Shown here: positions 26,641 to 44,613 of the stretch, in pieces
Layout: each line of letters opens with the position of its first letter
How positions within the stretch are numbered: position 1 is the stretch's first letter
Origin: Hyphomicrobiales bacterium
Lineage (GTDB): Bacteria > Pseudomonadota > Alphaproteobacteria > Rhizobiales > Rhizobiaceae
NCBI GenBank assembly: GCA_900472175.1
Contig: UCHD01000005.1
Coordinates: 124,001 to 188,000 of the forward strand
Reading direction: 5' to 3'
Length of the DNA: 64,000 nt
Notes under the pieces: model-generated
Told to the model about the DNA's origin: nothing
What the model saw: only the letters and a program-made list of their open reading frames with translations
Databases searched by the model: none
Program-made: the position numbers and the translations under genes

Positions 26641-27564
26641 CTATTCCTGGCGCAGCGCATTCGCCGCCTTGACAGCAGCAGACGCGCGGTTTTCGACGCC
26701 GAGCTTCACATAAATCTGCTCCAGATGCTTGTTGACCGTGCGGGCGCTCAGGCCAAGTATCTCGCCGATATCGCGATTGGATTTGCCCTTGGCGATCCAG
26801 AGCAGGACCTGACCCTCGCGCACCGTCAGCGAAAAATTCTGGCGAAGGATTTCGTCGTCGCTGGTTTGGCTGACGCCGGTCAGCCGGAACAGGAATTCGT
26901 CGCCGCCGTTTGCACCGAGATAGGCGAGTTGCAATACCGGCTGTCCGTTCTGATGGATCATCAGCGGGCCATCCTTGGATACGCCGTGTTTTTCACGTTC
27001 CTGCAACCAGCCGCGAATATGCACCGCCAGCGTATCCAGGCCGTCGTCGCTGCCTGTTGCAGCATTGACAAGGCGGTTCGCCTGCGGTGTCGACCATTGG
27101 ATGGCGCCATTGCTGCGCACGGCAAGCAGATGCCGTCCCGCCGCGTCCAGCGCCACACGCGCGCTTTGTGCCGAACGGGCATTGGCAAGGTGCACGCGGA
27201 TACGGGCGCGCAATTCGTCGATATTGATGGGTTTTGAAAGATAATCGACGCCGCCGGACTCCAACGCGTGGACGATGTGCTCGGTTTCGGTCAGGCCAGT
27301 CATGAAGATGACCGGCACCTGCGTGACGGCAGGGTTAGTTTTCAGCGTCCGGCAGGTATCGAAGCCATCCATGCCGGGCATGACGGCGTCCATCAAGATG
27401 ATGTCGGGCGTAATGCGATCGACGACGTTGATGGCGGCATTTCCGGATGTGGCGATCAGCACAGAAAATCCGGATTGTTCCAGCGCATCGGTGAGAAAAC
27501 CCAGCGTTTCCGGAGAATCGTCCACGATGAGCACGATATCGCGCGGATGCACTGCTTCATTCAC
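26641..27564 (-). CDS. LuxR-family response regulator paired with the NCS1-type hybrid kinase
   Basis: GTG 27564 overlaps the kinase stop by 8 bases and gives 307 residues; the open frame further upstream lies inside the kinase gene and does not look homologous. The receiver spans residues 8-125, with acidic pair VDD, phospho-acceptor Asp59 (ILMDAVMPG) and Lys111 (SKPI). Residues 140-230 form a middle segment of possible PAS-like character (RHLLAVRSNGAIQWSTPQANRL). A LuxR helix-turn-helix is at 245-300 (LTVREGQVLLWIAKGKSNRDIGEILGLSARTVNKHL). It would bind DNA when phosphorylated. Likely targets are urtA and the urease genes next door, but this is inference. Confidence 0.88.
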   Translation of the reverse strand: MNEAVHPRDIVLIVDDSPETLGFLTDALEQSGFSVLIATSGNAAINVVDRITPDIILMDAVMPGMDGFDTCRTLKTNPAVTQVPVIFMTGLTETEHIVHALESGGVDYLSKPINIDELRARIRVHLANARSAQSARVALDAAGRHLLAVRSNGAIQWSTPQANRLVNAATGSDDGLDTLAVHIRGWLQEREKHGVSKDGPLMIHQNGQPVLQLAYLGANGGDEFLFRLTGVSQTSDDEILRQNFSLTVREGQVLLWIAKGKSNRDIGEILGLSARTVNKHLEQIYVKLGVENRASAAVKAANALRQE

Positions 27565-30500
27565 TGGCCGGTCTCCCCTGTTTGTCGATGTTGTGCAGGA
27601 AGTCGGCATATCCGGCAAGATCGAAAGCCTGGACATAGGTCTTGAGCACGTCGGTAAATGGCTGATTTTCCTCGTGGCGCGCAAGGTCGGCGAGCTTGGC
27701 CTCTATGCCGCGGACATAGCCGATTTCGCCAAGCCGGATCAGTTCCTCGACATGAGCGCTGCCCGGGTTGCTGACCGCCCGTTTGGGTCTGGCCAGCGGT
27801 GTTGGCTGCAGCATGTCGCTGTAGGTCCATTCGAGCGCCAGATGAACGGCGAGCTTATCGTGCAACTGCCGGATATCGAATGGCTTGGCCAGCGTATCAT
27901 TGTGGCCGCTATGGCTGTCGGCAGCTGTCCCGTCGCCAATGTTGGCCGACAGCATGATGACGGGGGCCAGTTGCCCGTGATCACGCAGCCGCGTTACCAG
28001 CTGCCAGCCGTTCATGCCCGGCATCGAGATGTCGATCAGGAAGAGGTCCGGTTTGATGCCTTCGATCAGCGTCAGGCACTCCGCCCCTCCGGCGGCCGTC
28101 AGCACGACGAAATCGAGCGGCATCAGCACCTCGCGCATCAGGTCGCGATGGTCTTCATTGTCATCGACAACGACGATGGTCCGGCGAGCACCCGCATACC
28201 CGGCTATCTTGCGGATGGACGGCAGCGATGCGGTTGGCCGGTTGATGGCCGACAGCATCAGTCGCACCCGGAAGGTCGAGCCCTTGTCGCGCTCGCTGTC
28301 GACGACGATCTCGCCGCCCAGTGTCTGGGTGAGAAGCTGCGTGATGGTCAATCCCAGTCCAAGGCCGGGCATGGGGCGGATATGCTCTGCCTCGCCGCGC
28401 TGGAAGGGCTCGAAAATCCGCGGCAGATCCGCTTGCGAAATGCCGCGGCCGGTGTCGGAGACGGTGAAGGTTGCCACCTGGCTGCGATAGGTGACGCCGA
28501 AGCGGATGGTGCCTGTATCGGTGAATTTGATGGCGTTGGAGAGCAGATTGACGAGGATTTGGCGCAGGCGTTTTTCATCGGTGCGGACATATTGCGGCAA
28601 AGCGCTTGCCCGCTCGTGCTCGAACAGCAGGCCTTTGGCCTGCGCCTGCGGCCGGAACATATCGGTGATCTGGGCGAGGAAATCCTGGATATTGATCTCG
28701 TTGGAATAGACCTGCAGCCGGCCAGCCTCGATCTTGGAAATATCCAGCAGACCGTCGATCAGGCCGGAGAGGTGATCGGCACTGCGCTTGATCACCTTGA
28801 TGGCCGACTGGCGTGGGGCGGGTATTGTTTCGTCGCGCTCGAGAATTTGGGCATAGCCGAGCACGGCATTGAGCGGCGTGCGCAGCTCATGGCTGAGGCC
28901 AACCACGTAACGGCTCTTGGCCCGGTTGGCGGCCTCTGCCGTCTCCTTGGCATATTGGAGGGCAGCGTCGGTCTTTTTGTGGGCAGCGATTTCCTTGAGC
29001 AGCAGGGTATTTTGGCGAGAGGATTCTTCTTCAGCAACCAGGCGGCTGTCATGCGCCAGCACGTAAAACCAGCAGACGACCCCGGTCACCACGGCAAAAA
29101 CGAAAAAGACCACGCCGACGGTGCGGTTGATCACCGAGGCTGTCTCCGGCGAGGCCGTGCCGGTCTGATGGGCGATCATCGCCAGAATGATACCGATACC
29201 GGCAACCGACAGAACGACGGCGATGCAATATCGGCCGAGCCGGGTGGACAGCGTTTCCATCACTTTTTGCGGCAGCAGGGCCTTGGCCACCACCGCTGTC
29301 TGCGCGTTGAAGCGCGCATGTGGCTTGCACATGTCGTGGCAGCGGCTGTCGAGCGAGCAGCAGAGCGAGCAGATCGGCGCGGAATAGGCCGGGCACCAGG
29401 CCATATCCTCCGGCTCGAACGGGTGTTCACAGATCGAGCAGGTAACGATCGAGAGTTTCTTCCAACTCTGGCGCGGCTTGCGGGCAAGGTAATATTTGCC
29501 CTTTGTCGCCCAGGCGATGGCGGGCGAGACGACGAAGGCGGTGATCAGTGCGATATAGGGCGCAAGCGACGCGGCCATGGCGCCAAGCACGCCGAAATGC
29601 GCCGTCAACGCGATCAGTGCCGATGCCGTCATGGCACCGGTGCCGACTGGGTTGATATCGTAGAGATGGGCCCGCTTGAACTCGATATTGGGGGGCGCCA
29701 GTCCCAGCGGCTTGTTGATGAACAGATCGGCGGAGATCGTGCAGAGCCAGGCCATGGCGATGATCGAGAAGATGCCGAGCGTTTCTTCCAAGAGCTTGTA
29801 GATGCCGAGTTCCATCAACAGCAGCGCGATGGCCACATTGAACATCAGCCAGACGACGCGGCCGGGATGGCTATGGGTGAGGCGGGAGAAGAAATTCGAC
29901 CAGGCGAGCGAGCCTGCATAGGCGTTCATGACGTTGATCTTCAGCTGCGACACGACGACGAAGGCGGCCATCAGCAACAGCGCCGCATTGTGCCACGGGA
30001 TCATGTAGCCGAACGCTGTCAGGTACATATGTGCGGGGTCGGCGGCATCCTCGACCGGAACGCCGGCGCTGAGACAGAGGACGACCAGGAACGAACCCGC
30101 CAGCAGCTTCGGCGCGCCGACGATTACCCAGCCGGCGCCGGCCAGGAATACGGCAAGCCGGTGATGCAACTTGCGCTGGCCTTCCGGCGGCAGGAAGCGG
30201 AGGAAATCCACCTGCTCGCCGATCTGCGCCATCAGGGCGAGGATAACGGCGGAGGCTGCGCCAAATTCCAGCAGCGAGAACGGTGCAAGTGTGCCAGATT
30301 CGCCGAATGGCTTGCTGGTGCCGGGAAAGGCAAGCCAGAGGTCGAACTTGCTCCAGTCGGCCAGCGCGATGAAGATAAAGGGTGCGATATTGAGGATGAT
30401 CCAGAATGGCTGGGTCAAAAGCTGAAACTTGCTGATCAGCCGGACACCATGGGTCACCAGCGGGATGACCATAACGGCGCTGATGATATAGCCGATCCAG

Positions 30501-30946
30501 ACGGGGATGCCGAGTGCCAGTTCCAGCGCCGCCGACATGATCGAGGCTTCGATGGCAAACAGCATGAAGGTGAACGAGGCGTAGATCAGCGAAGTGATCG
30601 TGGAGCCGATGTAACCGAAGCTGGCGCCGCGCGTCAAAAGGTCGATATCGACGCCGTGGCGGATGGCATAGCGGCTGATCGGCAGGCCGACGCCGAGCAT
30701 GACGAGGCTGGCGGCGAGAATGGCGATGATGGCATTGGTGGTGCCGTAGGACAATGTGATGGCGCCGCCGATCGCCTCCAGCGCCAGAAACGAGATCGCC
30801 CCGATCGCCGTCTGCGAAATGCGCTGCGAGGAGAATTGCCGGGCGCTCTTGGCGGTGAACCGCAGCGCGTAGTCTTCCAGCGTCTGGTTGGCGACCCAGC
30901 GATTGTATTCGCGGCGGACCGGGATGATGCGCTGGCGTGCGGTCAT
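27557..30946 (-). CDS. Hybrid histidine kinase with an NCS1-type permease sensor and Cys-rich segment
   Basis: The protein has 1129 residues. Residues about 15-490 form a multi-helix membrane domain of the nucleobase:cation symporter-1 type (YALRFTAKSARQFSSQRISQTAIGA, IGGAITLSYGTTNA, QIGEQVDFLRFLPP). Residues 503-540 carry eight cysteines (503, 506, 518, 526, 529, 530, 536, 540). Two further helices follow at about 573-592 and 609-631, then a coiled coil. The kinase core has His686 (LSHELRTPLN), N-box Asn804 and the DTGRGI and GLGLGL boxes. A receiver at 922-1036 has Asp972 and Lys1021. A transporter domain fused to a kinase is reminiscent of CbrA, which uses a different transporter family. 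It is divergent from urtA and coupled to the regulator gene downstream. The ligand is unknown; urea or a purine/allantoin-type compound are candidates. Confidence 0.9.
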   Translation of the reverse strand: MTARQRIIPVRREYNRWVANQTLEDYALRFTAKSARQFSSQRISQTAIGAISFLALEAIGGAITLSYGTTNAIIAILAASLVMLGVGLPISRYAIRHGVDIDLLTRGASFGYIGSTITSLIYASFTFMLFAIEASIMSAALELALGIPVWIGYIISAVMVIPLVTHGVRLISKFQLLTQPFWIILNIAPFIFIALADWSKFDLWLAFPGTSKPFGESGTLAPFSLLEFGAASAVILALMAQIGEQVDFLRFLPPEGQRKLHHRLAVFLAGAGWVIVGAPKLLAGSFLVVLCLSAGVPVEDAADPAHMYLTAFGYMIPWHNAALLLMAAFVVVSQLKINVMNAYAGSLAWSNFFSRLTHSHPGRVVWLMFNVAIALLLMELGIYKLLEETLGIFSIIAMAWLCTISADLFINKPLGLAPPNIEFKRAHLYDINPVGTGAMTASALIALTAHFGVLGAMAASLAPYIALITAFVVSPAIAWATKGKYYLARKPRQSWKKLSIVTCSICEHPFEPEDMAWCPAYSAPICSLCCSLDSRCHDMCKPHARFNAQTAVVAKALLPQKVMETLSTRLGRYCIAVVLSVAGIGIILAMIAHQTGTASPETASVINRTVGVVFFVFAVVTGVVCWFYVLAHDSRLVAEEESSRQNTLLLKEIAAHKKTDAALQYAKETAEAANRAKSRYVVGLSHELRTPLNAVLGYAQILERDETIPAPRQSAIKVIKRSADHLSGLIDGLLDISKIEAGRLQVYSNEINIQDFLAQITDMFRPQAQAKGLLFEHERASALPQYVRTDEKRLRQILVNLLSNAIKFTDTGTIRFGVTYRSQVATFTVSDTGRGISQADLPRIFEPFQRGEAEHIRPMPGLGLGLTITQLLTQTLGGEIVVDSERDKGSTFRVRLMLSAINRPTASLPSIRKIAGYAGARRTIVVVDDNEDHRDLMREVLMPLDFVVLTAAGGAECLTLIEGIKPDLFLIDISMPGMNGWQLVTRLRDHGQLAPVIMLSANIGDGTAADSHSGHNDTLAKPFDIRQLHDKLAVHLALEWTYSDMLQPTPLARPKRAVSNPGSAHVEELIRLGEIGYVRGIEAKLADLARHEENQPFTDVLKTYVQAFDLAGYADFLHNIDKQGRPASE

Positions 30947-31151: not shown

Positions 31152-31167
31152 TACGTTAATTGACGTA
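31152..31167. promoter_or_regulatory. Inverted repeat TACGT-N6-ACGTA upstream of urtA
   Basis: Perfect 5-bp arms (31152-31156 and 31163-31167) surround a nearly symmetric TAATTG centre. The repeat sits 18 bases upstream of the sigma-54-type element. It is a candidate operator for the adjacent LuxR-type regulator, by position only. Confidence 0.3.
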
Positions 31168-31258: not shown

Positions 31259-32548
31259 ATGACATTTAAATCCCAGATCCTGGGCGCGTTTCTGGCTGGC
31301 GCGCTCGCCACGACAGCATTTTCCAGCGTTCAGGCTGCCGAAGACACGATCAAGGTCGGCGTGCTGCATTCGCTGTCCGGCACCATGGCAATCTCCGAGA
31401 CGACGCTCAAGGATGCCATGCTGATGCTCATCGAAGAGCAGAACAAGAAGGGTGGCCTTCTCGGCAAGAAGCTCGAGGCCGTCGTTGTCGATCCGGCCTC
31501 CGACTGGCCGCTGTTTGCCGAAAAAGCCCGCGAACTGATCTCCGTCGACAAGGTCGCGGCCGTCTTCGGTTGCTGGACGTCGTCGTCGCGCAAATCGGTC
31601 CTGCCGGTTTTCGAAGAGCTGAATTCGATCCTGTTCTACCCGGTCCAGTACGAGGGTGAGGAATCCTCGCGCAACATCTTCTACACCGGTGCAGCTCCCA
31701 ACCAGCAGGCCATTCCGGCCGTCGACTATCTGATGAACACCGAGGGCGTCGAACGTTTCGTGCTGGAAGGCACCGATTACGTCTATCCGCGCACGACCAA
31801 CAAAATCCTCGAAGCCTATCTGATCGCCAAGGGTATCCCAAAAGAGGATATCATGATCAACTACACGCCATTCGGCTTCTCCGACTGGCAGACGGAGGTG
31901 GCGAAGATCAAGGAATTCGGTTCGGCCGGCAAGAAAACGGCCGTCGTTTCGACCATCAACGGCGATGCCAACGTGCCGTTCTACAAGGAGCTCGGCAACA
32001 AGGGCATCAAGGCAACCGATATCCCGGTCGTCGCCTTCTCCGTCGGCGAAGAAGAGCTGGCCGGTCTCGATACCAAGCCGCTGGTTGGTCACCTCGCCGC
32101 GTGGAACTACTTCCAGTCCGTCGATGCGCCTGCCAATGCTGAATTCATCAAGCAGTGGCATGCCTTCACCAAGAATGACAAGCGCGTCACCAACGATCCG
32201 ATGGAAGCCGCCTATATCGGCTTTAGTGCCTGGGTAAAGGCCGTCGAGGCTGCTGGAACCACCGAAACCGATGCCGTTCTCGACACGATCATCGGCACCA
32301 GCGTACCGAACCTTTCGGGCGGCTACTCCACCGTGATGCCGAACCACCACATCACCAAGCCGGTGCTGATCGGTGAAATCCAGGCCGACGGCCAGTTCGA
32401 AATCGTCCAGCAGACCCCACAAGTTGTCGGCGACGAATGGTCGGACTTCCTGCCGGACTCCAAGGATTTGATCTCCGATTGGCGCAAGCCGATGTCCTGC
32501 GGCAACTTCAACGTTGCAACGGGCAAGTGCGGCGGCAAGGGCTCCTGA
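31259..32548 (+). CDS. urtA: Urea ABC transporter substrate-binding protein UrtA
   Basis: The protein has 429 residues from ATG 31259. The signal peptide ends near AQA (MTFKSQILGAFLAGALATTAFSSVQAAE). The mature protein shows UrtA-type motifs: IKVGVLHSLSGTMAISETTLKDAMLMLIEEQN, VFGCWTSSSRKSVLPVFEE, LFYPVQYEGEESS and NYFQSVDAPANAEF. It binds urea or short-chain amides in the periplasm and delivers them to UrtBC. It is the first gene of a long same-strand cluster ending at ureG. A strong hairpin follows before urtB. Confidence 0.95.
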   Translation: MTFKSQILGAFLAGALATTAFSSVQAAEDTIKVGVLHSLSGTMAISETTLKDAMLMLIEEQNKKGGLLGKKLEAVVVDPASDWPLFAEKARELISVDKVAAVFGCWTSSSRKSVLPVFEELNSILFYPVQYEGEESSRNIFYTGAAPNQQAIPAVDYLMNTEGVERFVLEGTDYVYPRTTNKILEAYLIAKGIPKEDIMINYTPFGFSDWQTEVAKIKEFGSAGKKTAVVSTINGDANVPFYKELGNKGIKATDIPVVAFSVGEEELAGLDTKPLVGHLAAWNYFQSVDAPANAEFIKQWHAFTKNDKRVTNDPMEAAYIGFSAWVKAVEAAGTTETDAVLDTIIGTSVPNLSGGYSTVMPNHHITKPVLIGEIQADGQFEIVQQTPQVVGDEWSDFLPDSKDLISDWRKPMSCGNFNVATGKCGGKGS

Positions 32549-32867
32549 TGTCAACGATTACCCGCTGATTTCATCAAGCTCAGCATATTCCGGCAACGGC
32601 CTGACAGCCATTTCCCAGAAATCATTCTCATGACGTCTTGATTGAAATGCCAATACCCTCCGTCCAGACCCTGTCTGGGCGGAGGGACCTGCATCCCGAC
32701 ATCTGGCATGTTTTCTGCTTGGCTCAGTTGGGACGCGGCTCCTGGATGCCGGTCCTCATCGATGTGCTCGTCGAGCGAGCGGAGTGCGGAAAACTTAAGC
32801 AACAGCGCCGGCATAACGTGTGTTTCGTCAATGCACGGCGCCCGAGCCAACGGAACAAGAAGAGCTC
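32549..32867 (+). other. urtA-urtB intergenic region
   Basis: These 319 bases hold no convincing gene; short frames here lack ribosome sites and coding character. The main content is a 14-bp hairpin (separate entry). No clear promoter for urtB is visible, so urtB is probably expressed by transcription continuing from urtA. Confidence 0.6.
32656..32686 (+). terminator. Long hairpin between urtA and urtB, likely mRNA stabiliser or attenuator
   Basis: A 14-bp stem (CCCTCCGTCCAGAC with GTCTGGGCGGAGGG, one G-T wobble) closes on a 3-base loop. It starts 108 bases after the urtA stop. There is no T run after it (ACCTGCATCC), so it is not a standard terminator. Such hairpins protect the 3' end of a binding-protein message and lower expression of downstream permease genes. 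Confidence 0.5.
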
Positions 32868-34475
32868 ATGTATCGCGCCATCCAAACCTTCCTTGTTGCT
32901 CTCTGCCTGCTGATCAGCTGCTTGGCAACGGGCCTGCGCGCTGAGGAGAACATCCGGCCGCTGGTCGATGCGCTGGGCGCTCCGGCTTTCCCGCAGAAGA
33001 TCGAGGCCGTCAAAGCGTTGGCCGCATCGGGTGATCCTAAGGTCGGTGACATCCTGAAGAACCTCAGCGACGGCAAGCTTTATGCGCCGAAGACCGGCGG
33101 TGCGGTCTATCTCGAAGGTTCGGCCGACGGTACCTATCTTGATGTGCTGACAGGGGCCGCGGTCTCTGATGCTCCCGGAAACCTTGCGAAAATCCGGTTA
33201 AACAATGGCCTGCGCGGGGCGATCGGCACGGCGCTCAGCCAGTTGACGCTTCTGAGTCCGGATCGTTCCGCCCGGCTTGCGGCATCGCAGAATCTGCTCA
33301 AGGACGCCAATCCGGACAATCTTGCCCTGTTGAATTCGGCTCTGACTGAGGAGAAGGACGCCGAGATCAAATCGACCATGGAAGCGGCGCGCGCCGTTAT
33401 CCTGCTCAAGACAGAAGCCAACGCCGAAGCCAAGAAAGCCGCTATCGGCACGATTGCCGCGCGTGGAAACCGCGATGCCCTGACGATCCTGACGGCAGCG
33501 ATGGCCAATGCGCCTGATGACCTGAAGCCGGTGATCCAGACCCATGTCAATGCGATCGAGCGAAGCCTTGCCGTCTGGGATATCGCCCAAAACGTTTGGT
33601 ATGGCCTGTCGCTCGGTTCCGTCCTGCTTCTCGCGGCCATCGGCCTTGCCATTACTTTCGGGGTCATGGGTATTATCAACATGGCCCATGGCGAGATGGT
33701 CATGCTCGGGGCCTACACCACCTACGTGGTGCAGCAGACGATCGCTGCGGTGGCGCCGGGAATGGCCGATTTTTCGCTGGCGTTTGCGGTTCCCGCGGCC
33801 TTTCTCTTCACCGGCCTGGTTGGCGTTGGCATCGAACGCAGCGTCATCCGCTGGCTTTATGGCCGTCCGCTTGAAACGCTGCTCGCCACCTGGGGCATCT
33901 CGCTGATCCTGCAGCAGGCGATCCGCACCATCTTCGGCCCGACCAACCGTCAGGTCGACAATCCAAGCTGGATGTCGGGTGCGTTCGAGATCGGCGGGCT
34001 TGCGATCACCTACAATCGCATGTGGATCATCGTCTTTTCGCTGGGTGTCTTCGTCGCCTTGCTGCTGCTGCTTAAACGCTCCAAGTTCGGCCTGCAGATG
34101 CGCGCGGTCACCCAGAACCGGCGGATGGCTTCGTCGATGGGTATCCGTACCCCCTGGGTCGACGCGCTGACCTTCGGGCTCGGATCCGGCATTGCCGGCA
34201 TGGCGGGGGTGGCGCTCAGCCAGATCGACAATGTCTCGCCCAATCTCGGCCAGAACTACATTATCGACAGTTTCATGGTCGTGGTCTTCGGCGGTGTCGG
34301 TAATCTCTGGGGGACGCTGGTGGGCGCGCTGACACTTGGCATCGCCAACAAGTTTCTGGAGCCCTATGCCGGTGCGGTGCTCGGCAAGATCCTCATTCTC
34401 ATCTTCATCATTCTTTTCATCCAGCGGCGGCCACGCGGCCTGTTCGCGCTCAAGGGAAGGGCGGTCGAACAATGA
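32868..34475 (+). CDS. urtB: Urea ABC transporter permease UrtB
   Basis: ATG 32868 gives 535 residues with a signal-like start (MYRAIQTFLVALCLLISCLATGLRAEEN). Residues about 25-235 form the N-terminal helical-repeat domain typical of UrtB and absent from LivH. The LivH-like membrane core follows: YGLSLGSVLLLAAIGLAITFGVMGIINMAHGEMVMLGAYTTY, IERSVIRWLYGRPLETLLATWGISLILQQ and FGGVGNLWGTLVGA. It overlaps urtC by ATGA. Confidence 0.94.
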   Translation: MYRAIQTFLVALCLLISCLATGLRAEENIRPLVDALGAPAFPQKIEAVKALAASGDPKVGDILKNLSDGKLYAPKTGGAVYLEGSADGTYLDVLTGAAVSDAPGNLAKIRLNNGLRGAIGTALSQLTLLSPDRSARLAASQNLLKDANPDNLALLNSALTEEKDAEIKSTMEAARAVILLKTEANAEAKKAAIGTIAARGNRDALTILTAAMANAPDDLKPVIQTHVNAIERSLAVWDIAQNVWYGLSLGSVLLLAAIGLAITFGVMGIINMAHGEMVMLGAYTTYVVQQTIAAVAPGMADFSLAFAVPAAFLFTGLVGVGIERSVIRWLYGRPLETLLATWGISLILQQAIRTIFGPTNRQVDNPSWMSGAFEIGGLAITYNRMWIIVFSLGVFVALLLLLKRSKFGLQMRAVTQNRRMASSMGIRTPWVDALTFGLGSGIAGMAGVALSQIDNVSPNLGQNYIIDSFMVVVFGGVGNLWGTLVGALTLGIANKFLEPYAGAVLGKILILIFIILFIQRRPRGLFALKGRAVEQ

Positions 34476-35665
34476 TCACGCAAATGCTTTTCAGCCGGCA
34501 CGAAAAGAAGACGGTCTGGGCCGTTTGCCTCATCCTGCTTGCAGCAATCCTCGTACCGCTCGCCAATCTGCTGATCCCGGAAGGCAGCGTCTTTCATGTC
34601 CCCGGCTATCTGGTGCCGCTGCTTGGCAAATACCTCTGCTATGCGCTTTTGGCTTTGGCGCTTGATCTCGTCTGGGGTTACTGCGGCATTCTCTCGCTTG
34701 GTCATGGCGCCTTCTTCGCGCTCGGCGGTTATGCCATGGGCATGTACCTCATGCGCCAGATCGGCGACCGGGGCGTCTATGCCAACCCGTTACTGCCGGA
34801 TTTCATGGTCTTCCTGAACTGGAGCGAGCTGCCCTGGTACTGGCATGGCTTCAATCATTTCGCCTTTGCGGCGCTGATGGTTCTGTTGGTTCCCGGATTG
34901 CTGGCATTCGTTTTCGGCTGGTTTGCCTTCCGCTCGCGGGTTACTGGTGTCTACCTGTCGATTATTACCCAGGCGATGACCTATGCGCTGCTGCTCGCCT
35001 TCTTCCGCAACGAGATGGGTTTTGGCGGCAATAATGGCCTGACCGATTTCAAGGAAATTCTCGGCTTCAACGTTCAGGCCGGTGGCACGCGCGCAGCGCT
35101 TTTTGCGGCAACCGCAATCGCGCTGGCGCTGGCGCTGGTTCTGAGTTCGGCCATCGTCCGTTCAAAATACGGCAAGGTGCTGGTCGGCGTGCGCGATGCC
35201 GAAAGCCGGACCCGGTTTCTGGGCTACCGGGTCGAAAACATGAAACTGTTCATCTTCACCGTCTCGGCGATGATGGCCGGTGTGGCCGGTGCGCTCTATG
35301 TGCCGCAGGTTGGCATCATCAATCCCGGCGAATTCGCCCCGGCAAACTCGATCGAAGTGGTGATCTGGACTGCCGTTGGTGGACGCGGCACGCTGATCGG
35401 TCCGATCATCGGCGCCATCCTCGTCAACTTCGGCAAGAGCATCTTTACCGCTGCCTTCCCGGAATTCTGGCTGTTTGCCCTGGGTGCCCTGTTCGTCGCC
35501 ACGACCTTGTTCCTGCCCAAGGGGGTGGTCGGCACGGTCCAGCAGTTTCTTTCCCGGCGCAAGGAACAGAAACAAGCTGATGCCGCTGAAAAAATCTATC
35601 AGGACAAGGCTGCGGCCAGGGCTGAAAGTCGGCTGGCCACGCTTGAACCCCAGGCTGCGGAGTAA
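34472..35665 (+). CDS. urtC: Urea ABC transporter permease UrtC
   Basis: The protein has 397 residues and is the LivM-like second membrane subunit. Family motifs are LVWGYCGILSLGHGAFFALGGYAMGMYLMRQ, WFAFRSRVTGVYLSIITQAMTYALLLAFFRNEMGFGGNNGLTDFKE and FLGYRVENMKLFIFTVSAMMAGVAGALYVPQVGIINP. The Lys/Ala-rich cytoplasmic tail is not conserved. It starts in the urtB stop and ends 5 bases before urtD. Confidence 0.95.
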   Translation: MITQMLFSRHEKKTVWAVCLILLAAILVPLANLLIPEGSVFHVPGYLVPLLGKYLCYALLALALDLVWGYCGILSLGHGAFFALGGYAMGMYLMRQIGDRGVYANPLLPDFMVFLNWSELPWYWHGFNHFAFAALMVLLVPGLLAFVFGWFAFRSRVTGVYLSIITQAMTYALLLAFFRNEMGFGGNNGLTDFKEILGFNVQAGGTRAALFAATAIALALALVLSSAIVRSKYGKVLVGVRDAESRTRFLGYRVENMKLFIFTVSAMMAGVAGALYVPQVGIINPGEFAPANSIEVVIWTAVGGRGTLIGPIIGAILVNFGKSIFTAAFPEFWLFALGALFVATTLFLPKGVVGTVQQFLSRRKEQKQADAAEKIYQDKAAARAESRLATLEPQAAE

Positions 35666-35670
35666 GATCG

Positions 35671-36423
35671 ATGGATGCAAAGACCTCACGGAGCCTGCTT
35701 TATCTCGACGGCGTCTCGGTATCGTTCGACGGGTTCAAGGCACTGAATTCGCTGTCCTTTGTGGTCGAGCCCGGTGAACTCAGGGCTATCATCGGTCCGA
35801 ATGGAGCAGGCAAGACGACGATGATGGATATCATCACCGGCAAGACCCGGCCCGACAGCGGCCAGGTGTTTTTCAATGGCGATATCGATCTGACCAAGAA
35901 GGACGAGGCCGACATCGCCCAGCTCGGCATCGGCCGGAAGTTTCAGAAGCCGACGGTGTTCGAAAGCCATACCGTCTGGGACAATATCGAACTGGCGCTC
36001 AACCGGAAACGTGGCGTGTTCTCGACCCTGTTTTACCGGCTGACGGTGGAGGACAAGGCGCGTATCGAGGAAATCCTCCAAACGGTGCGCATGACTGCGC
36101 GCAGGGACGATCTGGCCGCCAATCTTTCGCACGGTCAGAAACAGTGGCTGGAGATCGGCATGCTGCTCGCGCAGGAGCCGAAGCTGCTTCTGGTCGATGA
36201 GCCCGTTGCCGGCATGACCGATGCGGAAACCGCCGAAACCGCCATCCTGCTCAAGGAAATCGCCAAGACCCGCTCGGTCGTCGTCGTCGAACACGACATG
36301 GGCTTCATCCGCGATCTCGGCGTCAAGGTGACGTGCCTAGCGGAAGGCTCGGTGCTGGCCGAAGGCTCGATCGATTTCGTCAGCAACGATCCGAAAGTGA
36401 TCGAGAATTATCTGGGGCGGTGA
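35671..36423 (+). CDS. urtD: Urea ABC transporter ATPase UrtD
   Basis: The protein has 250 residues. Walker A is GPNGAGKTTMMD. The Q-loop region GRKFQKPTVFESHTVWDNIELAL is diagnostic of UrtD. The signature is LSHGQKQWLEIGMLL, Walker B LLLVDEPVAGM and the H-loop VVEHDMGF. It pairs with UrtE to power urea import. The 207-base gap to urtE carries a RIME-like palindrome. Confidence 0.95.
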   Translation: MDAKTSRSLLYLDGVSVSFDGFKALNSLSFVVEPGELRAIIGPNGAGKTTMMDIITGKTRPDSGQVFFNGDIDLTKKDEADIAQLGIGRKFQKPTVFESHTVWDNIELALNRKRGVFSTLFYRLTVEDKARIEEILQTVRMTARRDDLAANLSHGQKQWLEIGMLLAQEPKLLLVDEPVAGMTDAETAETAILLKEIAKTRSVVVVEHDMGFIRDLGVKVTCLAEGSVLAEGSIDFVSNDPKVIENYLGR

Positions 36424-36471
36424 GATGCATTATGACGTTTCGATGTTCTGCGGCCGGTGGATGCCGCTTTC

Positions 36472-36603
36472 ACCCCCCTCTGTCGCTTCGCGACATCTCC
36501 CCCACAAGGGGGGAGATCGTTCTCTTTCCTCGATTGCGCTGAAGCCAATGGCAATCTCCCCCCTTGTGGGGGAGATGTCGGCGCCGCCGACAGAGGGGGG
36601 GGG
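36472..36603. repeat. RIME-like palindromic intergenic element, copy A (urtD-urtE gap)
   Basis: The ends are inverted repeats (CCCCCCTCTGTC at the left, GACAGAGGGGGG at the right). Inside, each half folds as CATCTCCCCC-ACAA-GGGGGGAGAT or its equivalent, with small GTCGC-TTCG-CGAC type hairpins next to the ends. It resembles the rhizobial intergenic mosaic element (RIME) as I remember it. It carries no gene and sits inside the urt operon. A second copy is at 53330-53473. Confidence 0.75.
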
Positions 36604-36630
36604 AGCCGGAACTTCTGAAGGTGATCAACT

Positions 36631-37326
36631 ATGCTGACCGTCGACAACATCAATCTCCATTACGGTGCGGCTCAAGCCCTCCGTGGCGTGTCCATTACAG
36701 CGCCCATGGGCAAGATCACCTGCGTTCTCGGCCGCAACGGCGTCGGCAAGACCAGCCTGCTTCGGGCCATCACCGGCCAGCATGGGCCAAGCGCCGGCAC
36801 GATCACGTTCAACGACACGGTGCTGAACGGCATGGCGCCCTACAATCGGGCCAAGCACGGCATTGGTTTCGTGCCGCAGGGGCGCGAGGTCTTTCCTCTG
36901 CTGACGGTCAAGGAAAACCTGGAATCGGGCTATGCGCCGGTGGCGCGCAAGGACCGGTTCATTCCGGAGGATATCTTCAATCTCTTCCCCATCCTGCGCT
37001 CGATGCTTGGCCGCCGCGGCGGCGATCTGTCGGGCGGGCAGCAGCAGCAGTTGGCGATTGGCCGGGCGCTGGTCACCCGGCCCAAAATCCTCGTCCTCGA
37101 TGAGCCGACGGAGGGTATCCAACCATCGATTATCAAGGATATCGGCCGGGCTATCCAGTATCTGCGCGATTCCACCGGGATGGCGATTCTGCTTGTGGAA
37201 CAATATCTTGACTTCTGCCGGGAGCTTGCAGACCATGTTTATATCATGGACCGTGGCGAGATCGTGCATGAAGGCCCGGCCGAGACGCTGGATACGCCGG
37301 AAGCGCGCCGCCATCTGACAGTGTGA
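36631..37326 (+). CDS. urtE: Urea ABC transporter ATPase UrtE
   Basis: The protein has 231 residues. Walker A is GRNGVGKTSLLRAITGQ; other motifs are IGFVPQGREVFPLLTVKENL, signature LSGGQQQQLAIGRALV, Walker B ILVLDEPTEGIQPSI and switch VEQYLDF. It completes the importer. ureD follows after 6 bases, tying urea uptake to urease expression. Confidence 0.95.
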   Translation: MLTVDNINLHYGAAQALRGVSITAPMGKITCVLGRNGVGKTSLLRAITGQHGPSAGTITFNDTVLNGMAPYNRAKHGIGFVPQGREVFPLLTVKENLESGYAPVARKDRFIPEDIFNLFPILRSMLGRRGGDLSGGQQQQLAIGRALVTRPKILVLDEPTEGIQPSIIKDIGRAIQYLRDSTGMAILLVEQYLDFCRELADHVYIMDRGEIVHEGPAETLDTPEARRHLTV

Positions 37327-37332
37327 CGGCGG

Positions 37333-38172
37333 ATGGGAATGGCTGAAGTAGCAGCAGGGATCGCTCCGCAAAGGGCGTGGGGTAAAGGGCGGCTGGTCGC
37401 AAAGCCGTTTGCGGGGCGTACCCGGCTTGCAGAATTCTACCAGGAAGGCTGCGCCAAGATCCGGTTGCCGGACACATTCGACTCCACGATGGAAGCCGTG
37501 CTGATCAACAGCTCCGGCGGTCTGACGGGTGGCGATCATATGGAATGGTCGTTTGCCGCCGGTGACGGTACGCACCTGACCCTGACGACCCAGGCCTGCG
37601 AGAAAATCTATAAAGCCAGCGCCGGCACGGCTGCGGTGAGTGCGCGGATTTCGGTTTCTGAAGGTGCGGCGGTGCATTGGCTGCCGCAGGAAACCATTCT
37701 GTTTGACCGCGCATCGCTGTCTCGAAAACTGGAGGTCGATCTTGCTGAAGAGGCGGAATTTCTGGCGGTGGAGGCGGTGCTTCTGGGCCGCAAGGCGATG
37801 GGCGAGGCGATGCGGGAAGGCCTATTTCAGGATCGCTGGCGCATTCGCAAGAACGGCGTGCTCCTGCATGCCGAAAATCTGCGGCTGTCCGGTGATATCG
37901 CCGGTTTGACGCAGGAACGCGCGGTGCTCGGCGGGCAGGTGGCTTTCGCGACCGTGTTTTACACCGGCGCTGATTGCGAACTGCATCTCGACACACTGCG
38001 CCGTCTGATCGGCGGCATTGGGGGCGGTGTGAGCTGCTATCGGGTGGCAGGCGAAGACAAGCTGATTGCCCGCCTGGTTGCCGCCGATGGTTTTGCCTTG
38101 AGAAAAATCCTCATCCCGATCATTTCGCACTTGCGCAAAGGCGCCTCTGTGCCGAAAGTCTGGAACCTCTAA
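37333..38172 (+). CDS. ureD: Urease accessory protein UreD
   Basis: The protein has 279 residues (277 if the second ATG at 37339 is used). UreD scaffolds apo-urease with UreF and UreG during nickel insertion. Motifs seen are [71 protein letters not shown] and [22 protein letters not shown]. Expression is very probably shared with urtE. Confidence 0.95.
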
Positions 38173-38198
38173 TTGACCCATAATCCCGGTGACCACGC

Positions 38199-38501
38199 AT
38201 GAACCTGACGCCTCGTGAAAAAGACAAACTGCTGATTTCGATGGCAGCCATGGTCGCCCGCCGGCGGCTGGAGCGCGGCGTCAAGCTCAACCATCCCGAA
38301 GCAATCGCCCTGATCACCGATTTTGTCGTCGAGGGTGCGCGCGATGGCCGCTCGGTGCCTGACCTGATGGAGGCGGGCGCTCATGTGATCACCCGCGCTC
38401 AGGTGATGGAAGGCATTCCCGAGATGATCCACGATATCCAGATTGAGGCGACGTTTCCGGATGGGACAAAGCTTGTCACCGTCCATGAACCCATTCGCTG
38501 A
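38199..38501 (+). CDS. ureA: Urease gamma subunit
   Basis: The protein has 100 residues, the exact length of the family. It begins [35 protein letters not shown], contains [23 protein letters not shown] and ends VTVHEPIR. It is the smallest structural subunit of the urea-hydrolysing enzyme. A DUF1272 gene separates it from ureB. Confidence 0.97.
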
Positions 38502-38510
38502 GGAAGGACC

Positions 38511-38765
38511 ATGCTGCAACTGAGACCCAATTGCGAATGCTGCAACAAGGATCTGCCGCCCGGCAGCCGCGAAGCCATGATCTGCAGCTTTGAATGCACC
38601 TTCTGCACGCAGTGCGTCACCGATGTTCTCGATGGACAATGCCCGAACTGCAGCGGAGAACTTGTCCGCCGCCCGGTTCGTCCGGCGGCCAAGCTTGGCA
38701 AGTTTCCGGCCTCCACCGAGCGCGTCCTGAAAGCCGAAGGCTGCGCGCCGATCAAGGCTGCCTGA
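38511..38765 (+). CDS. DUF1272 Cys-rich small protein inside the urease operon
   Basis: The protein has 84 residues. Nine cysteines in the first 47 residues (8, 10, 11, 25, 29, 32, 35, 44, 47) form a RING/zinc-ribbon-like pattern: [21 protein letters not shown] recognise this as DUF1272, a small family of unknown function, predicted to bind zinc or possibly another metal. It sits 9 bases after ureA and 17 before ureB, so it must be co-expressed with urease. A metal-handling role is only a guess. Confidence 0.85.
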
Positions 38766-38782
38766 AGAGGAGAGACGATACG

Positions 38783-39088
38783 ATGATTCCCGGTGAAATC
38801 CTTGCGGCAGAGGGCGAGATCGAGCTGAATGCCGGGCTGGACACGGTATCGCTGGAGGTTTCCAACAGCGGCGACCGTCCCGTGCAGGTCGGCAGCCATT
38901 ATCATTTTGCTGAAACCAATGCCGCCTTGCTGTTTGACCGGGCCGTGGCTCATGGCAGGCGCCTGGATATTCCAGCCGGAACCGCGGTGCGCTTTGAGCC
39001 GGGACAGACGCGTAGCGTCACGCTCATTCCTTTTACCGGCAAGCGCGAGGTTTACGGCTTCCGCCAGAAGGTCATGGGCAAGCTATGA
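38783..39088 (+). CDS. ureB: Urease beta subunit
   Basis: ATG 38783 gives 101 residues. Hallmarks are [52 protein letters not shown] and [12 protein letters not shown]. The frame is open further upstream but AGAGGAGA before this ATG decides the start. It ends in an ATGA overlap with the LprI-like gene. Confidence 0.97.
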
Positions 39089-39519
39089 GGCGTCTTCTCC
39101 TCACGTCGGCTTTGCTTGCCGCCACTCTCTTTCAAGGCGTTCTCCTTGCACAGGCGCAAGAGCAGCCGCAGGCCGATTGCGCCAATGCAATGACCCAGGC
39201 GGATATGAACATTTGCGCCAACAAGGATTATGAAGCGGCCGATACGGAGCTGAACGCGGTCTACAAGAAGACCATGGCGGCGATGAAGGACACCGACAAG
39301 GAAATGGCCGGTATCGACCCCAACTATGTCGGTGCTGTCGATGCGCTGAAGAAGGCCCAGCGCGCCTGGATCGATTATCGCGACGGCCAGTGTGAGCTTG
39401 CCGGTTTCGAGGCGCGGGGCGGTTCGATGGAGCCGATGCTGGTCTCCGGTTGCCTGGCGGACCTTACCAAGAAGCGAACCGAGGAACTGAAGGGCCTGAC
39501 GGAAGGTGCTGGAAACTGA
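39085..39519 (+). CDS. LprI-like (DUF1311) secreted protein inside the urease operon
   Basis: The protein has 144 residues with a signal peptide ([25 protein letters not shown]). The mature part carries the DUF1311/LprI pattern: [32 protein letters not shown] and [18 protein letters not shown], with four cysteines probably forming disulfides. Members include a lysozyme inhibitor, but most have no known role. It is translationally coupled to ureB by ATGA, which is an odd place for a periplasmic protein. Confidence 0.82.
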
Positions 39520-39520
39520 G

Positions 39521-40177
39521 GTGTTCGTGACCGCGAGCCGGACCATCATGATCGTTGGCAATGGTCCGGTGCCGGATGGTGCGGCCGCCATCATCGATGC
39601 GGCTGATCTGGTGATCCGCTTCAACGATTGCCGTTCCTGCGGAGCGGGTGGGGAGAAGACGGATATCATTGCCGTCTGCAATACCGGGCGCCCGGCGCTG
39701 GCCATGCTGGGGGGCGGGATGTGGAAGACGAAAGCGGCGGTGCGGCGGGCAAGCGCGATCTGGTGCGTTCGTGATGCGGACAAGTTTCAGGCGCTGCGGC
39801 CGCAACTGGCTGTGACGCATCCGGATCTGGATGACCTTTGCGACGATTATACCGATGGTTTTCGCGCCTTTGCCCAGGCGACCGGCCGCGCCTTTCATAC
39901 GATCCCGGCGTCTACGCATGAGCGTGTCGATGCGGGGCTGAAGCCATTCGACCTCGGCGAATACGTCGTGCCGAGCAGCGGTTTGATTGCGATTGCCGAA
40001 GTGCTGGCCCATTGGTGCCGTCCGGCTGATCGCGTGGTTCTTGCCGGTTTTGGCCATGCGGGCTGGGAGTGGCATCCGTTTTCTGCCGAGCGCCGTTATG
40101 TCGATGACCTGATTTCCAAGGGGCAGCTGTTGCGCCTCGATCCGACCAGTTTACCCGCCTTTGCTCAGGGAGCCTGA
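39521..40177 (+). CDS. 'Urease operon accessory protein', glycosyltransferase-29-like
   Basis: GTG 39521 gives 218 residues; GTG 39506, overlapping the previous gene by 14 bases, would give 223. It opens with [13 protein letters not shown], then [14 protein letters not shown], similar to the N-terminal nucleotide-sugar motif of sialyltransferase-like GT29 folds. It ends [29 protein letters not shown]. Rhizobial genomes label this family 'urease operon accessory protein' because of its position only. No biochemical role is known to me. It lies directly before ureC. Confidence 0.7.
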
Positions 40178-40182
40178 AAGCC

Positions 40183-41892
40183 ATGTCCTACAAAATGTCG
40201 CGAGCGGCCTATGCCAGCATGTTCGGCCCCACCACCGGCGACAAGGTTCGGCTGGCCGATACCGAGCTGTTCATCGAGGTGGAAAAGGATTTCACCACCT
40301 ATGGCGACGAGGTGAAGTTTGGCGGCGGCAAGGTCATTCGCGACGGCATGGGCCAGAGCCAGGCGACCCGCGCTCAAGGTGCCGTCGATACCGTTATCAC
40401 CAATGCGCTGATCGTCGATCACACCGGCATCGTCAAGGCGGATATCGGCTTGAAGAACGGCCGGATCGCCGCGATCGGCAAGGCTGGTAACCCGGACACC
40501 CAGCCGGGTGTGACGATCATTGTCGGTCCGTCGACGGAGGTGATTGCCAGCGAGGGCAAGATCATTACGGCAGGTGGTATGGATGCCCATATCCATTACA
40601 TTTGCCCGCAGCAGATCGAGGAAGCCCTGATGTCGGGGATCACCACGATGCTTGGCGGCGGCTCCGGCCCGGCGCATGGCACGCTGGCAACCACGTGCAC
40701 CGGCGCCTGGCATATCGAGCGGATGATCGAGAGCTTTGATGGCTTTCCGATGAATCTCGCGCTGGCCGGCAAGGGCAATGCATCGCTTCCGGCACCGATC
40801 GAGGAGATGATCCTTGCCGGAGCCTCCAGCCTGAAGCTGCACGAAGACTGGGGGACGACGCCGGCCGCGATCGACAATTGCCTGTCGGTTGCCGATGCCT
40901 TTGACGTGCAGGTGATGATCCACACGGATACGCTGAACGAAAGCGGTTTCGTCGAAGATACGATCGGGGCCATCAAGGGGCGTACGATCCATGCCTTTCA
41001 CACCGAAGGCGCAGGCGGCGGCCATGCCCCCGATATCATCAAGATCTGCGGCCAGCCTAACGTCATCCCATCCTCGACCAACCCGACCCGGCCCTACACG
41101 GTCAACACGCTGGCCGAGCATCTCGACATGCTGATGGTCTGCCATCACCTGTCGCCGTCGATCCCGGAAGACATTGCCTTTGCCGAAAGCCGTATCCGCA
41201 AGGAGACGATCGCGGCCGAAGACATCCTGCATGACATCGGCGCGTTCTCGATCATTTCGTCCGACAGTCAGGCCATGGGCCGCGTCGGCGAGGTGGCGAT
41301 CCGCACCTGGCAGACGGCCGACAAGATGAAACGGCAACGGGGCCGGCTGCCGCAGGAGACCGGCGAGAACGACAATTTTCGCGTCCGGCGCTATATCGCC
41401 AAATACACGATCAACCCCGCGATCGCGCAGGGGCTTTCCCATGAGATCGGCTCGATCGAAGTCGGCAAGCGCGCCGATCTGGTGATGTGGAATCCGGCCT
41501 TCTTCGGGGTGAAACCCGATATGGTGCTTCTTGGCGGCATGATCGCGGCTGCTCCAATGGGCGATCCGAATGCCTCGATCCCGACGCCGCAGCCGGTGCA
41601 TTACCGGCCGATGTTTGGCGCCTTTGGCAAGGCGAGGACCAATTCGTCCGTCACCTTCGTATCGCAGGCATCGCTCGATGGCGGATTGCAGGCGCGGCTC
41701 GGTGTTGCCAAGCAGCTCGTTGCGGTGAAGAACACCCGTGGTGGCATTGGCAAGACCTCGATGATCCACAACAGCCTGACGCCGCATATCGAAGTCGATC
41801 CGGAAACCTACGAGGTTCGGGCCGATGGTGAACTTCTGACCTGCGAACCCGCAACCGTCTTGCCGATGGCGCAGCGCTACTTCATGTTCTAG
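40183..41892 (+). CDS. ureC: Urease alpha subunit (catalytic)
   Basis: The protein has 569 residues and hydrolyses urea to ammonia and carbamate. Nickel ligands and catalytic residues are visible: HIHYICPQQ, the carbamylated Lys in [37 protein letters not shown], the flap VCHHL and the Asp in [11 protein letters not shown]. All are intact, so the enzyme should be active. The start [29 protein letters not shown] is typical. It has no frameshift and is in frame with a normal spacer to the preceding gene. Confidence 0.98.
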
Positions 41893-41912
41893 CCGGTGTA
41901 GATCGAGAAAGA

Positions 41913-42596
41913 ATGCTGATGTTGTGGAGACGGCCCTTGCGCTGGCTGGCTGCCATTGTTTTTGCGGCCGCCTTTGTTGTGGTTGCCGGAACGTTGGTGC
42001 CTCGGCCTTTGTGGCCGGCGGAAAAGGCCGATAAGGCGGCGGGAACGCATCGTATCCTGGTGCTCGCCAATCCCATCCATACGGACATTGCCATTCCCAT
42101 CGATGCGGAAACGCTTGCCCGCTTTCCGTTTCTCGCCGAAAGCGGCATGCCGGTAACGCATCCGGACGCACGCTGGCTGGTTCTCGGCTGGGGCGGCATG
42201 GCGTTTTATATCGAGACGCCCACATGGTCGGAGTTGAAGCCAGTGCCCTTGTTCAAGGGGCTGACGCTCGATCGTTCCGTCATCCACGCCGATATCGTTG
42301 GTGATGTTATCGAGCCTGCGGATCATGTTGCGGGCTTTGATATCGGGCCGGATGAATACGAACGGCTGCTATCCTTCATCGAAGCGAGCTTTATGTCAGC
42401 AGGCGGCAGGATCGAGGCGATCCCGGATACCGCCTATGGTCCCAACGACCGGTTTTTCGAGGCTAACGGCTGGTTCAGTGCTGTCGCCGGCTGCAATACC
42501 TGGACGGCCAAGGCGCTTCGCGAGGCGGGTTTGCGGACTGGCTGGTGGAACCCGTTGCCGGTTTCCCTGTCGGCATCGCTGGCGCTGTATAATTGA
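41913..42596 (+). CDS. TIGR02117/DUF2459 urease-region conserved protein
   Basis: The protein has 227 residues with one N-terminal membrane anchor (LRWLAAIVFAAAFVVVAGTLV) and a periplasmic domain. LANPIHTDIAIPID, WLVLGWGGMAFYIETPTW and VAGCNTWTAKALREAGL are characteristic of the family I know as TIGR02117, defined by its location in urease regions. The Cys and His placement recalls NlpC/P60-type hydrolases, but this is only a resemblance. It follows ureC by 20 bases. Confidence 0.8.
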   Translation: MLMLWRRPLRWLAAIVFAAAFVVVAGTLVPRPLWPAEKADKAAGTHRILVLANPIHTDIAIPIDAETLARFPFLAESGMPVTHPDARWLVLGWGGMAFYIETPTWSELKPVPLFKGLTLDRSVIHADIVGDVIEPADHVAGFDIGPDEYERLLSFIEASFMSAGGRIEAIPDTAYGPNDRFFEANGWFSAVAGCNTWTAKALREAGLRTGWWNPLPVSLSASLALYN

Positions 42597-42781
42597 AATT
42601 GTTGACTTTTTGTCGCAGGCACAGGCATGCGCTGAGTGCAGGTCAGCCATGCGGCGGGTGTTTTTCGTCGCCTTTGTGCTGCATCGCAGCAGCCATTGCT
42701 ATAGAAAAAGGGTCACTTCCTGCGCCGGATTCCTCCCAAGACCTGCCGCGCAGGGTGTTCGTTTTTCAAGGAGTTCCCATC

Positions 42782-43324
42782 ATGATCATTGGCAGAAAAG
42801 TTCCGTCCGTTACCTTCCGTACGCGTGTTCGCGACGAAGCTGTTGGCGGTGCCAATCCATTCCGCTGGCAGGACGTTTCGTCGGCCGATTATTTCGCCGG
42901 CAAGCGTGTTGTGCTGTTCTCGCTGCCGGGCGCGTTTACGCCGACCTGCTCGACCTTTCAGCTTCCCGACTTCGAAAAGTTGACGGCTGATTTCCGTGCC
43001 GAGGGCATTGACGAAATCTACTGCATCTCCGTCAACGACGCCTTCGTCATGAATGCCTGGGGCAAGTCGCAGAACCTCGAAAACGTCAAGCTCATTCCGG
43101 ATGGCTCCGGTGAGTTTACCCGCAAGATGGGCATGCTCGTTTCCAAGGACAATCTCGGCTTCGGTATGCGCTCCTGGCGTTATGCTGCCGTCATCAATGA
43201 TGGTGTCGTTGAGCAGTGGTTCGAGGAAGAAGGCTATTGCGACAATGCCGACAGCGATCCTTATGGCGTCTCGTCGCCGCAGAACATTCTCGGCGCGCTG
43301 CAGGCGGAAAAGATCGCTGCCTGA
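42782..43324 (+). CDS. Peroxiredoxin (Prx5-like, thioredoxin fold)
   Basis: ATG 42782 has AAGGAG 7 bases upstream and gives 180 residues. The peroxidatic centre is LPGAFTPTCS with Cys56 and Thr53. KRVVLFSLPGAFTPTCS and ISVNDAFVMNAWGK are typical of the Prx5/AhpE-like peroxiredoxins that reduce peroxides using glutaredoxin or glutathione. It has its own 185-base leader and its own strong terminator, so it looks like a separate transcription unit placed between urease genes. Confidence 0.9.
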   Translation: MIIGRKVPSVTFRTRVRDEAVGGANPFRWQDVSSADYFAGKRVVLFSLPGAFTPTCSTFQLPDFEKLTADFRAEGIDEIYCISVNDAFVMNAWGKSQNLENVKLIPDGSGEFTRKMGMLVSKDNLGFGMRSWRYAAVINDGVVEQWFEEEGYCDNADSDPYGVSSPQNILGALQAEKIAA

Positions 43325-43349
43325 TTTCAGGCACGCGTGATCTTCGCGA

Positions 43350-43391
43350 AATCCGGCGCCGGGCCTGTTTGGTCTGGCGCCGGATTTTTTT
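43350..43391 (+). terminator. Intrinsic terminator after the peroxiredoxin gene, inside the urease cluster
   Basis: An 11-bp stem (AATCCGGCGCC with GGCGCCGGATT, arms 43350-43360 and 43376-43386) is followed by eight T residues. It is a strong rho-independent signal 25 bases after the stop. ureEFG lie downstream on the same strand. Confidence 0.88.
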
Positions 43392-43430
43392 GTTGTTACA
43401 GTTGCATGGATGAATTTGAAGGCTCGCCGA

Positions 43431-44577: not shown

Positions 44578-44613
44578 CGGTTTCGAGCCCGCTTTCTTGA
44601 AAGGAATATTGCG

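Follow-up and report, generated by a model that had tools for sequence, protein, structure and literature searches.

What does a histidine kinase sense when its N-terminal half resembles a permease, and which genes does it control when it lies back to back with the genes for urea import and urease? The locus that raises this question lies within the window, the whole 64-kb stretch of soil-bacterium DNA that was analysed here.

Architecture of the kinase and NCS1 kinship of its permease-like domain

The kinase gene and the parts of its product are as follows.

27557..30946, minus strand: NCS1-type permease-fused hybrid histidine kinase, 1129 aa (open reading frame open throughout; start matches the family alignment)
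29477..30877, minus strand: NCS1-type permease-like domain, residues ~24–490 (hydropathy, AlphaFold model, Foldseek, hhalign)
29327..29440, minus strand: eight-cysteine module, residues 503–540 (homologue alignment)
29051..29227, minus strand: second membrane part, hydrophobic peaks at ~583 and ~621 (hydropathy and model)
28253..28918, minus strand: HisKA and HATPase_c, residues 677–898 (Pfam; catalytic boxes)
27851..28177, minus strand: receiver domain, residues 924–1032 (Pfam)

The C-terminal half is that of a hybrid histidine kinase, with Pfam matches to HisKA (residues 677–742), HATPase_c (residues 789–898) and Response_reg (residues 924–1032), and with an H box (SHELRTP from residue 685), an N box, G boxes and the receiver aspartate (in LIDISMP) all found. 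Pfam scans of the protein listed nothing ahead of HisKA. The score for the NahK/ErcS hybrid kinases (NF041832) was 207 bits, below the curated cut-off of 400. An open frame of 1225 codons (27275–30952, plus strand) runs antisense to the whole kinase gene; the window contains other long antisense frames, and codon composition is probably their cause.

The permease-like domain has 12 hydrophobic peaks between residues 56 and 464 and is followed by a module with cysteines at positions 503, 506, 518, 526, 529, 530, 536 and 540 (C503, C506, C518, C526, C529, C530, C536 and C540). All eight are present in each of the 121 homologues that cover the module (122 aligned), and no Pfam family matched it in a Pfam scan. 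If the 12 helices hold, the module would lie in the cytoplasm. The AlphaFold model places helices 569–598 and 600–656 in the second membrane part.

The kinase is accompanied by a regulator on the same strand and by the urt and ure genes on the opposite strand.

26641..27564, minus strand: LuxR-type response regulator (REC + GerE), ~307 aa (Pfam)
31259..32548, plus strand: urtA, urea ABC transporter binding protein (TIGR03407, 550 bits, above cut-off)
32820..37326, plus strand: urtB, urtC, urtD and urtE (TIGR03409, TIGR03408, TIGR03411 and TIGR03410, all above cut-off)
37333..45225, plus strand: urease region (UreD PF01774; ureC)
37333–38172, plus strand: ureD (PF01774)
40183–41892, plus strand: ureC (family match)
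44614–45225, plus strand: candidate UreG reading frame (label from position only)

The regulator has the REC and GerE domains of the LuxR/NarL type. Its start is probably the GTG at 27564, which overlaps the kinase stop and suggests translational coupling of the two genes. The initial annotation had described a complete histidine kinase and receiver in one chain with a permease, a LuxR-type regulator next to it and a back-to-back arrangement with urtABCDE-ure; the Pfam matches and catalytic boxes confirm the first, the REC + GerE frame overlapping the 3' end of the kinase gene the second, and the family matches on the opposite strand the third. The stretch from ureC to the later urease reading frames holds a DUF2459 protein (41913–42596) and a redoxin/AhpC-like protein (42593–43324), both of which struck us as unusual company in a urease cluster.

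The family of the permease-like part was sought at several levels. Residues 1–546 had no Pfam match of any kind at E ≤ 10 in a single-sequence search, PF02133 included, and phmmer with the single N-terminal sequence returned nothing useful, its PDB list consisting of weak chance matches. The family profile matched no PDB sequence, nor did the free-standing permease L195 alone, and a PF02133 search of the window's own genome matched no gene. In contrast to the single-sequence Pfam result, hhalign with a 25-member family alignment as query aligned residues 24–417 with five NCS1 proteins at a probability of 98.4% (E = 8.7e-15, where E-values refer to one comparison, and where one of the five, L201, had originally surfaced as a weak match of the query itself). 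An origin from the SSF family was rejected, since hhalign against eight SSF proteins gave just 0.4%, whereas the comparison of NCS1 proteins with SSF in the same run gave 78.4%.

A bridging sequence led to the same family. L195, a free-standing permease of 547 aa, aligns with residues 24–535 of the kinase (tblastn E = 7.6e-25) and is itself above the PF02133 cut-off (1.8e-7), thus connecting the kinase to NCS1. It is one of five free-standing relatives (L195 and L196–L199), and of L197, L198 and L199, scanned with PF02133, none was above the cut-off. The end of L195 carries a cysteine stretch partly similar to the eight-cysteine module which, in a permease without a kinase, points to a structural role. 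The AlphaFold model, built from 43 sequences and of moderate confidence (pLDDT 78.4, pTM 0.77), had Mhp1 (5e-8) and CodB (6e-8) as its best Foldseek matches, with entries of these two proteins at ranks 1–5. Because profile–profile comparison, bridge sequence and fold search concur, we regard the permease-like part as a distant NCS1-type domain. The NCS1-type domain originally placed at about residues 15–490 is therefore upheld as ~24–490, although the PF02133 profile check suggested for it was negative in its single-sequence form and only hhalign, the L195 bridge and the fold were positive.

Two kinds of genomic partner

The spread of the kinase was followed through sets of genomes of increasing breadth. 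In the genus of the window, 24 of 25 genomes (its own among them) gave a match; in one genome of this genus, which is 78% complete, the front part of the kinase appears as four separate pieces (G013:C1:3991658-3993298). An even draw of 385 genomes of the class gave 27 matches, one of which (G178) was a free-standing permease only, leaving 26 kinase genomes, and 49 of 199 genomes of the order matched, four of them weakly, leaving 45. The relatives examined by name, the best 80 of 592, include Rhizobium, Sinorhizobium, Agrobacterium, Devosia, Bradyrhizobium and others.

Among these best 80 of 592 relatives, a regulator match lies beside the kinase in all 80 loci, and UrtA is encoded within 10 kb in 76, always on the opposite strand and in 65 of the 76 within 3 kb; of the four loci lacking UrtA, L125 and L133 are cut by a contig end and L127 and L148 are uncut. 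UrtA was likewise found within ~10 kb of the kinase in 21 of the 26 kinase genomes of the class draw, divergent in 18 and with urt downstream on the same strand in three (G317, G395 and G286). No UrtA was found near the kinase in the other five (G073, G202, G300, G091 and G366), of which G366 has only part of the kinase. Across the 385 class genomes, a urtA above cut-off occurs in 25 of 26 genomes with the kinase versus 63 of 359 without it (Fisher p = 1e-16, relatedness ignored). Linkage alone does not tell whether the cue is urea itself or one of its products, for example ammonium.

The linked genes are of two kinds. In the first, UrtA–E resemble those of the window, with UrtA 65–99% identical. 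In the second, UrtA is ~40% identical to that of the window and belongs to a second UrtA–E set, which is followed by a formamidase (PF03069, 1.8e-179 in L156). The formamidase is present in 23 of 26 loci of this second kind, and the other three (L143, L159 and L160) reach a contig end. In at least 11 fetched genomes both UrtA–E sets occur, and it is the second that adjoins the kinase. The 40 fetched loci comprise 24 of the 25 class kinase genomes other than the window's own, and 16 hand-picked loci of the order draw; the class kinase genome G207 was read from coordinates rather than fetched. In a quick tree of the permease part with 58 rows, which took in the window, the fetched loci except the partial L178 (39 of 40) and 18 of the 80 named loci, the partner label was strongly clustered, with three changes between the kinds; well-supported branches alone force two (urt) or one (formamidase) partner changes.

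Three loci (L187, L192 and L193) encode shorter kinases without a receiver beside a formamidase, with no UrtA within the 20 kb examined and no TACG-N8-CGTA site, the sequence described below. The permease-kinase of L192 (6210–10045) has 878 aa and no receiver; the next gene encodes a protein that combines receiver, HisKA and HATPase_c domains, and the formamidase is nearby.

The permease part is also carried by 525 plasmid records at E 1e-40, of which 342 are from Klebsiella. Plasmid records of Sinorhizobium meliloti contain homologues at 84%, and among the named loci S. psoraleae, S. fredii and S. medicae show the linkage to urt. Two E. coli records contain a cassette made up of formamidase-urtEDCBA, a kinase at 51% to the domain of the window, and the regulator. 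In these E. coli records, one a plasmid and one a chromosome (L272:3925-14280 and L273:3925-14280), the cassette is flanked on both sides by transposase genes.

The initial annotation had tied the kinase to urea genes and had called for a survey of homologues for linkage to urtA. That linkage is borne out by both the named loci and the class draw, and the urt-ure association stands; a large part of the family, on the other hand, adjoins a formamidase and the second UrtA–E set. With so many members beside formamidase, the cue is better stated as urea and small amides. Both kinds of operon handle urea or a small amide, and a shared cue of that kind would be the simplest reading.

A conserved inverted repeat ahead of urtA

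The divergent region between kinase and urtA contains a further feature.

31152..31167, no strand assigned: inverted repeat TACGTTAATTGACGTA, at which the regulator is proposed to bind; 91 bp separate its end from the urtA start codon

This repeat is the sole match to TACGY-N6-RCGTA in the 64 kb, against an expectation of 0.02. Dyad counting in the divergent regions of homologous loci gave TACGT-N6-ACGTA for urt loci and ATACG-N8-CGTAT for formamidase loci, so that the core common to both partner types is TACG-N8-CGTA. Of the divergent kinase–UrtA regions, 67 of 68 in urt-type loci and 18 of 26 in formamidase-type loci contain the core, compared with 0.24 and 0.08 in dinucleotide shuffles, and TACG/CGTA at other spacings (0–7 and 9–16) had no match in the same regions. 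This count covers the 94 of 120 loci (L075–L194) in which UrtA is divergent within 3 kb, and its entries are not independent, because 56 of the 68 urt loci stem from the nearest-relative list (best 80 of 592). Loci drawn from the class or order alone have the site in 11 of 12 urt-type and 11 of 17 formamidase-type cases. It is also present, as TACGTCATTTAACGTA, in the divergent region of the two E. coli formamidase-cassette records.

Among the 67 urt loci with the site, 64 have it at a distance of 73–177 bp from the UrtA match, including loci in which up to 2.8 kb of extra sequence separates kinase and urtA. In some loci, L084:7920-9944 and L114:7948-9885 among them, the gene of a PATR-repeat protein of the PAP2 family separates the two, and the inverted repeat keeps its place near urtA. 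In L172, L175 and L177, the site is near the kinase, ~950–1345 bp from UrtA and ahead of a reading frame of 288–389 aa that points in the direction of urtA; L174 is similar, with a 393-aa frame. The frames of ~390 aa between repeat and urtA (L172:10423-11589, L175:10384-11550 and L174:9336-10514) begin, by eye, with what resembles a signal peptide. Across diverse loci, a T is favoured ~36 bp from the site centre, which would fit a promoter with the site near −42.

Exact sites were missing from one urt locus (L170) and from 8 of the 26 formamidase-type loci, several of which retain one half by eye. When a second motif was sought in six formamidase loci without the exact site, just shared half-sites were seen by eye. 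L165 and L167, in which urt lies downstream on the same strand, had no site in the stretch examined.

Is the repeat a property of urtA or of the kinase? The idea that every urtA carries it was rejected: in 20 of the 63 kinase-less genomes that have urtA, the 700 bp ahead of UrtA were searched, and none of the 20 contained the site. Among unlinked UrtA genes of kinase genomes, the site was present in 3 of 18 (a set that also contains two linked rows, G311 and G380, besides the 18); all three are of the formamidase type and come from one genus whose kinase is unlinked, and in these genomes the site also lies 180–199 bp ahead of the kinase match. With one mismatch allowed, L204, L205 and L208 (unlinked, one family) gain a site near 250 bp, and L212 and L228 (control) also show one, elsewhere. 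The window's own genome has the pattern five times and the reversed control 23 times. With one or two reading frames around each site searched, only the urtA site precedes a nitrogen operon; the other four have no nitrogen gene in that range that would point to a wider regulon. The earlier proposal that urt-ure is the target of the kinase thus gains support from the conserved repeat ahead of urtA, a candidate switch at the level of sequence.

Proposed sensing of urea or small amides and comparison with known systems

We propose, with a probability of roughly 0.62, that the kinase is a receptor-like permease that senses urea or small amides and activates the adjacent operon through its regulator. 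Urea or a small amide, arriving from either side of the membrane, would occupy the place in the NCS1-like domain that corresponds to the substrate site of NCS1 permeases, and the resulting change in shape would be relayed to the kinase by the eight-cysteine module and the additional membrane segments. Phosphate would then pass to the LuxR-type regulator, which may bind TACG-N8-CGTA upstream of urtA and so activate urtABCDE-ure. A formamidase operon would be the target of this pair of kinase and regulator in other bacteria. The domain is most likely a receptor, because the neighbouring ABC transporter does the bulk import and a second importer would be unneeded. Since sensor, regulator and DNA switch are kept together beside urea or formamide genes in most relatives examined, the unit probably turns on the use of urea or small amides when these are present.

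The predicted ligand site offers a hint in the same direction. Trp117 and Gln121 of Mhp1 bind hydantoin. The place of Gln121 is taken in the kinase by Glu133, invariant in 122 of 122 homologues, and that of Trp117 by Leu129 (aligned via L247). A kept pocket with altered residues would fit another amide ligand, which we treat as a lead only. The gene neighbours of free-standing relatives, given below, are a further hint at the ligand.

Alternatively, the NCS1-like domain could still transport a ureide, a hydantoin or a nucleobase, with the kinase reading the flux; the urea genes would be switched on because such a substrate yields urea. Kinship to Mhp1 and CodB speaks for this, as do the hydantoinase A/B genes near L195, L197 and L198, which are the three of the five free-standing relatives whose neighbours were searched, and the description of CbrA as a histidine transporter with a kinase (PMC13022988). 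We consider it unlikely, as the neighbours found for the kinase are urt-ure or formamidase genes with ABC importers of their own, and the Trp/Gln pair of Mhp1 is Leu/Glu. The surroundings of L195 (5432–13829) hold, besides this permease with its cysteine-rich tail and the hydantoinase genes, an UrtA-like binding protein and an AmiR-ANTAR regulator.

The divergent position of UrtA beside the kinase in most loci would also be expected if the kinase read loaded UrtA instead of free ligand and the membrane domain were a docking platform only. This seems improbable, given the short versions beside formamidase that have no UrtA in the 20 kb examined, the five class genomes without UrtA near the kinase, and the retention, inside predicted helices, of residues common to other NCS1 permeases. 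Urease needs nickel, and this requirement and the conservation of all eight cysteines could suit a metal or redox sensor that monitors, for example, the nickel supply for urease, but with many members beside formamidase and not urease, and a structural role suggested by the tail of L195, such a function is very improbable.

Returning to a receptor for urea or small amides, a wider interpretation is tentative, and we hold it to be rather less probable than not. It would see in these proteins a widespread, as yet unnamed class of NCS1-type receptors that have lost transport. Their pocket, with the invariant Glu at the place of Gln121, would read the –CO–NH2 group common to urea and short amides, and the eight-cysteine module would couple as STAC does in CbrA; the unit would have been placed before operons for urea or formamide on more than one occasion and been carried by plasmids into enterobacteria. 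If the role proposed above holds, the kinase would be a dedicated sensor of urea and small amides, built from a permease, beyond general nitrogen control, and the operon, the regulator and the 16-bp site provide a testable set.

Related clusters have appeared in print. On pKPN-307 plasmids, a urea cluster (UTS) is named with urtABC and formamidase (PMC5506382, PMC13060141), and a hybrid kinase, a LuxR regulator, urtABCDE and fmdA are listed for Ectopseudomonas guguanensis (PMC13296017). Table 4 of a Dechloromonas aromatica study gives a 1131-aa kinase, a regulator and UrtA as consecutive genes, and a 393-aa gene near UrtB (PMC2907700). By position and by name or length only, the Dechloromonas and Ectopseudomonas kinases may belong to this family. 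In the parts of these four reports that treat the clusters, the kinase is neither called a permease fusion nor given a role; for the urea/formamide cassette noticed there on clinical plasmids, with no account of control in those parts, the present work offers a probable regulator.

Transporter-fused kinases described so far include CbrA (PMC13022988, PMC7096432) and Ks-Amt5 (PMC5764959); a treatment of S-component receptors (PMC11109136) sets CbrA aside in the part concerned. CbrA of Pseudomonas, described as SLC5 with STAC, PAS and kinase domains, resembles the window kinase in that a single chain links transporter and histidine kinase by way of a small cytoplasmic module, and in having a nutrient regulator as output (PMC13022988). 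The window kinase differs in its NCS1-type domain, for which hhalign to the SSF/SLC5 side gave the 0.4% noted above, in its eight-cysteine module and two more hydrophobic segments, which sit where CbrA has STAC (PMC13022988), and in its receiver and LuxR-type partner. In Ks-Amt5 of Kuenenia, a nutrient transporter fold likewise serves a fused kinase as its receptor and is reported to have lost transport; Ks-Amt5 differs in its Amt fold and its ligand, ammonium, and the portion of the source concerned names no receiver and identifies no regulator (PMC5764959). Mhp1 and CodB share fold and profile kinship with the window domain but are free-standing transporters, from which the domain departs at the places of Trp117 and Gln121 of Mhp1. 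A search of the open-licence literature found no description of an NCS1-type kinase fusion, which is weak evidence of absence; on that footing, the NCS1 type appears new among transporter-fused kinases, and the present analysis adds its linkage to urtA, the two partner types and the conserved site. How a transporter turns into a receptor could thereby be tested beyond SLC5 and Amt, in a third fold family for which free-standing relatives exist for comparison.
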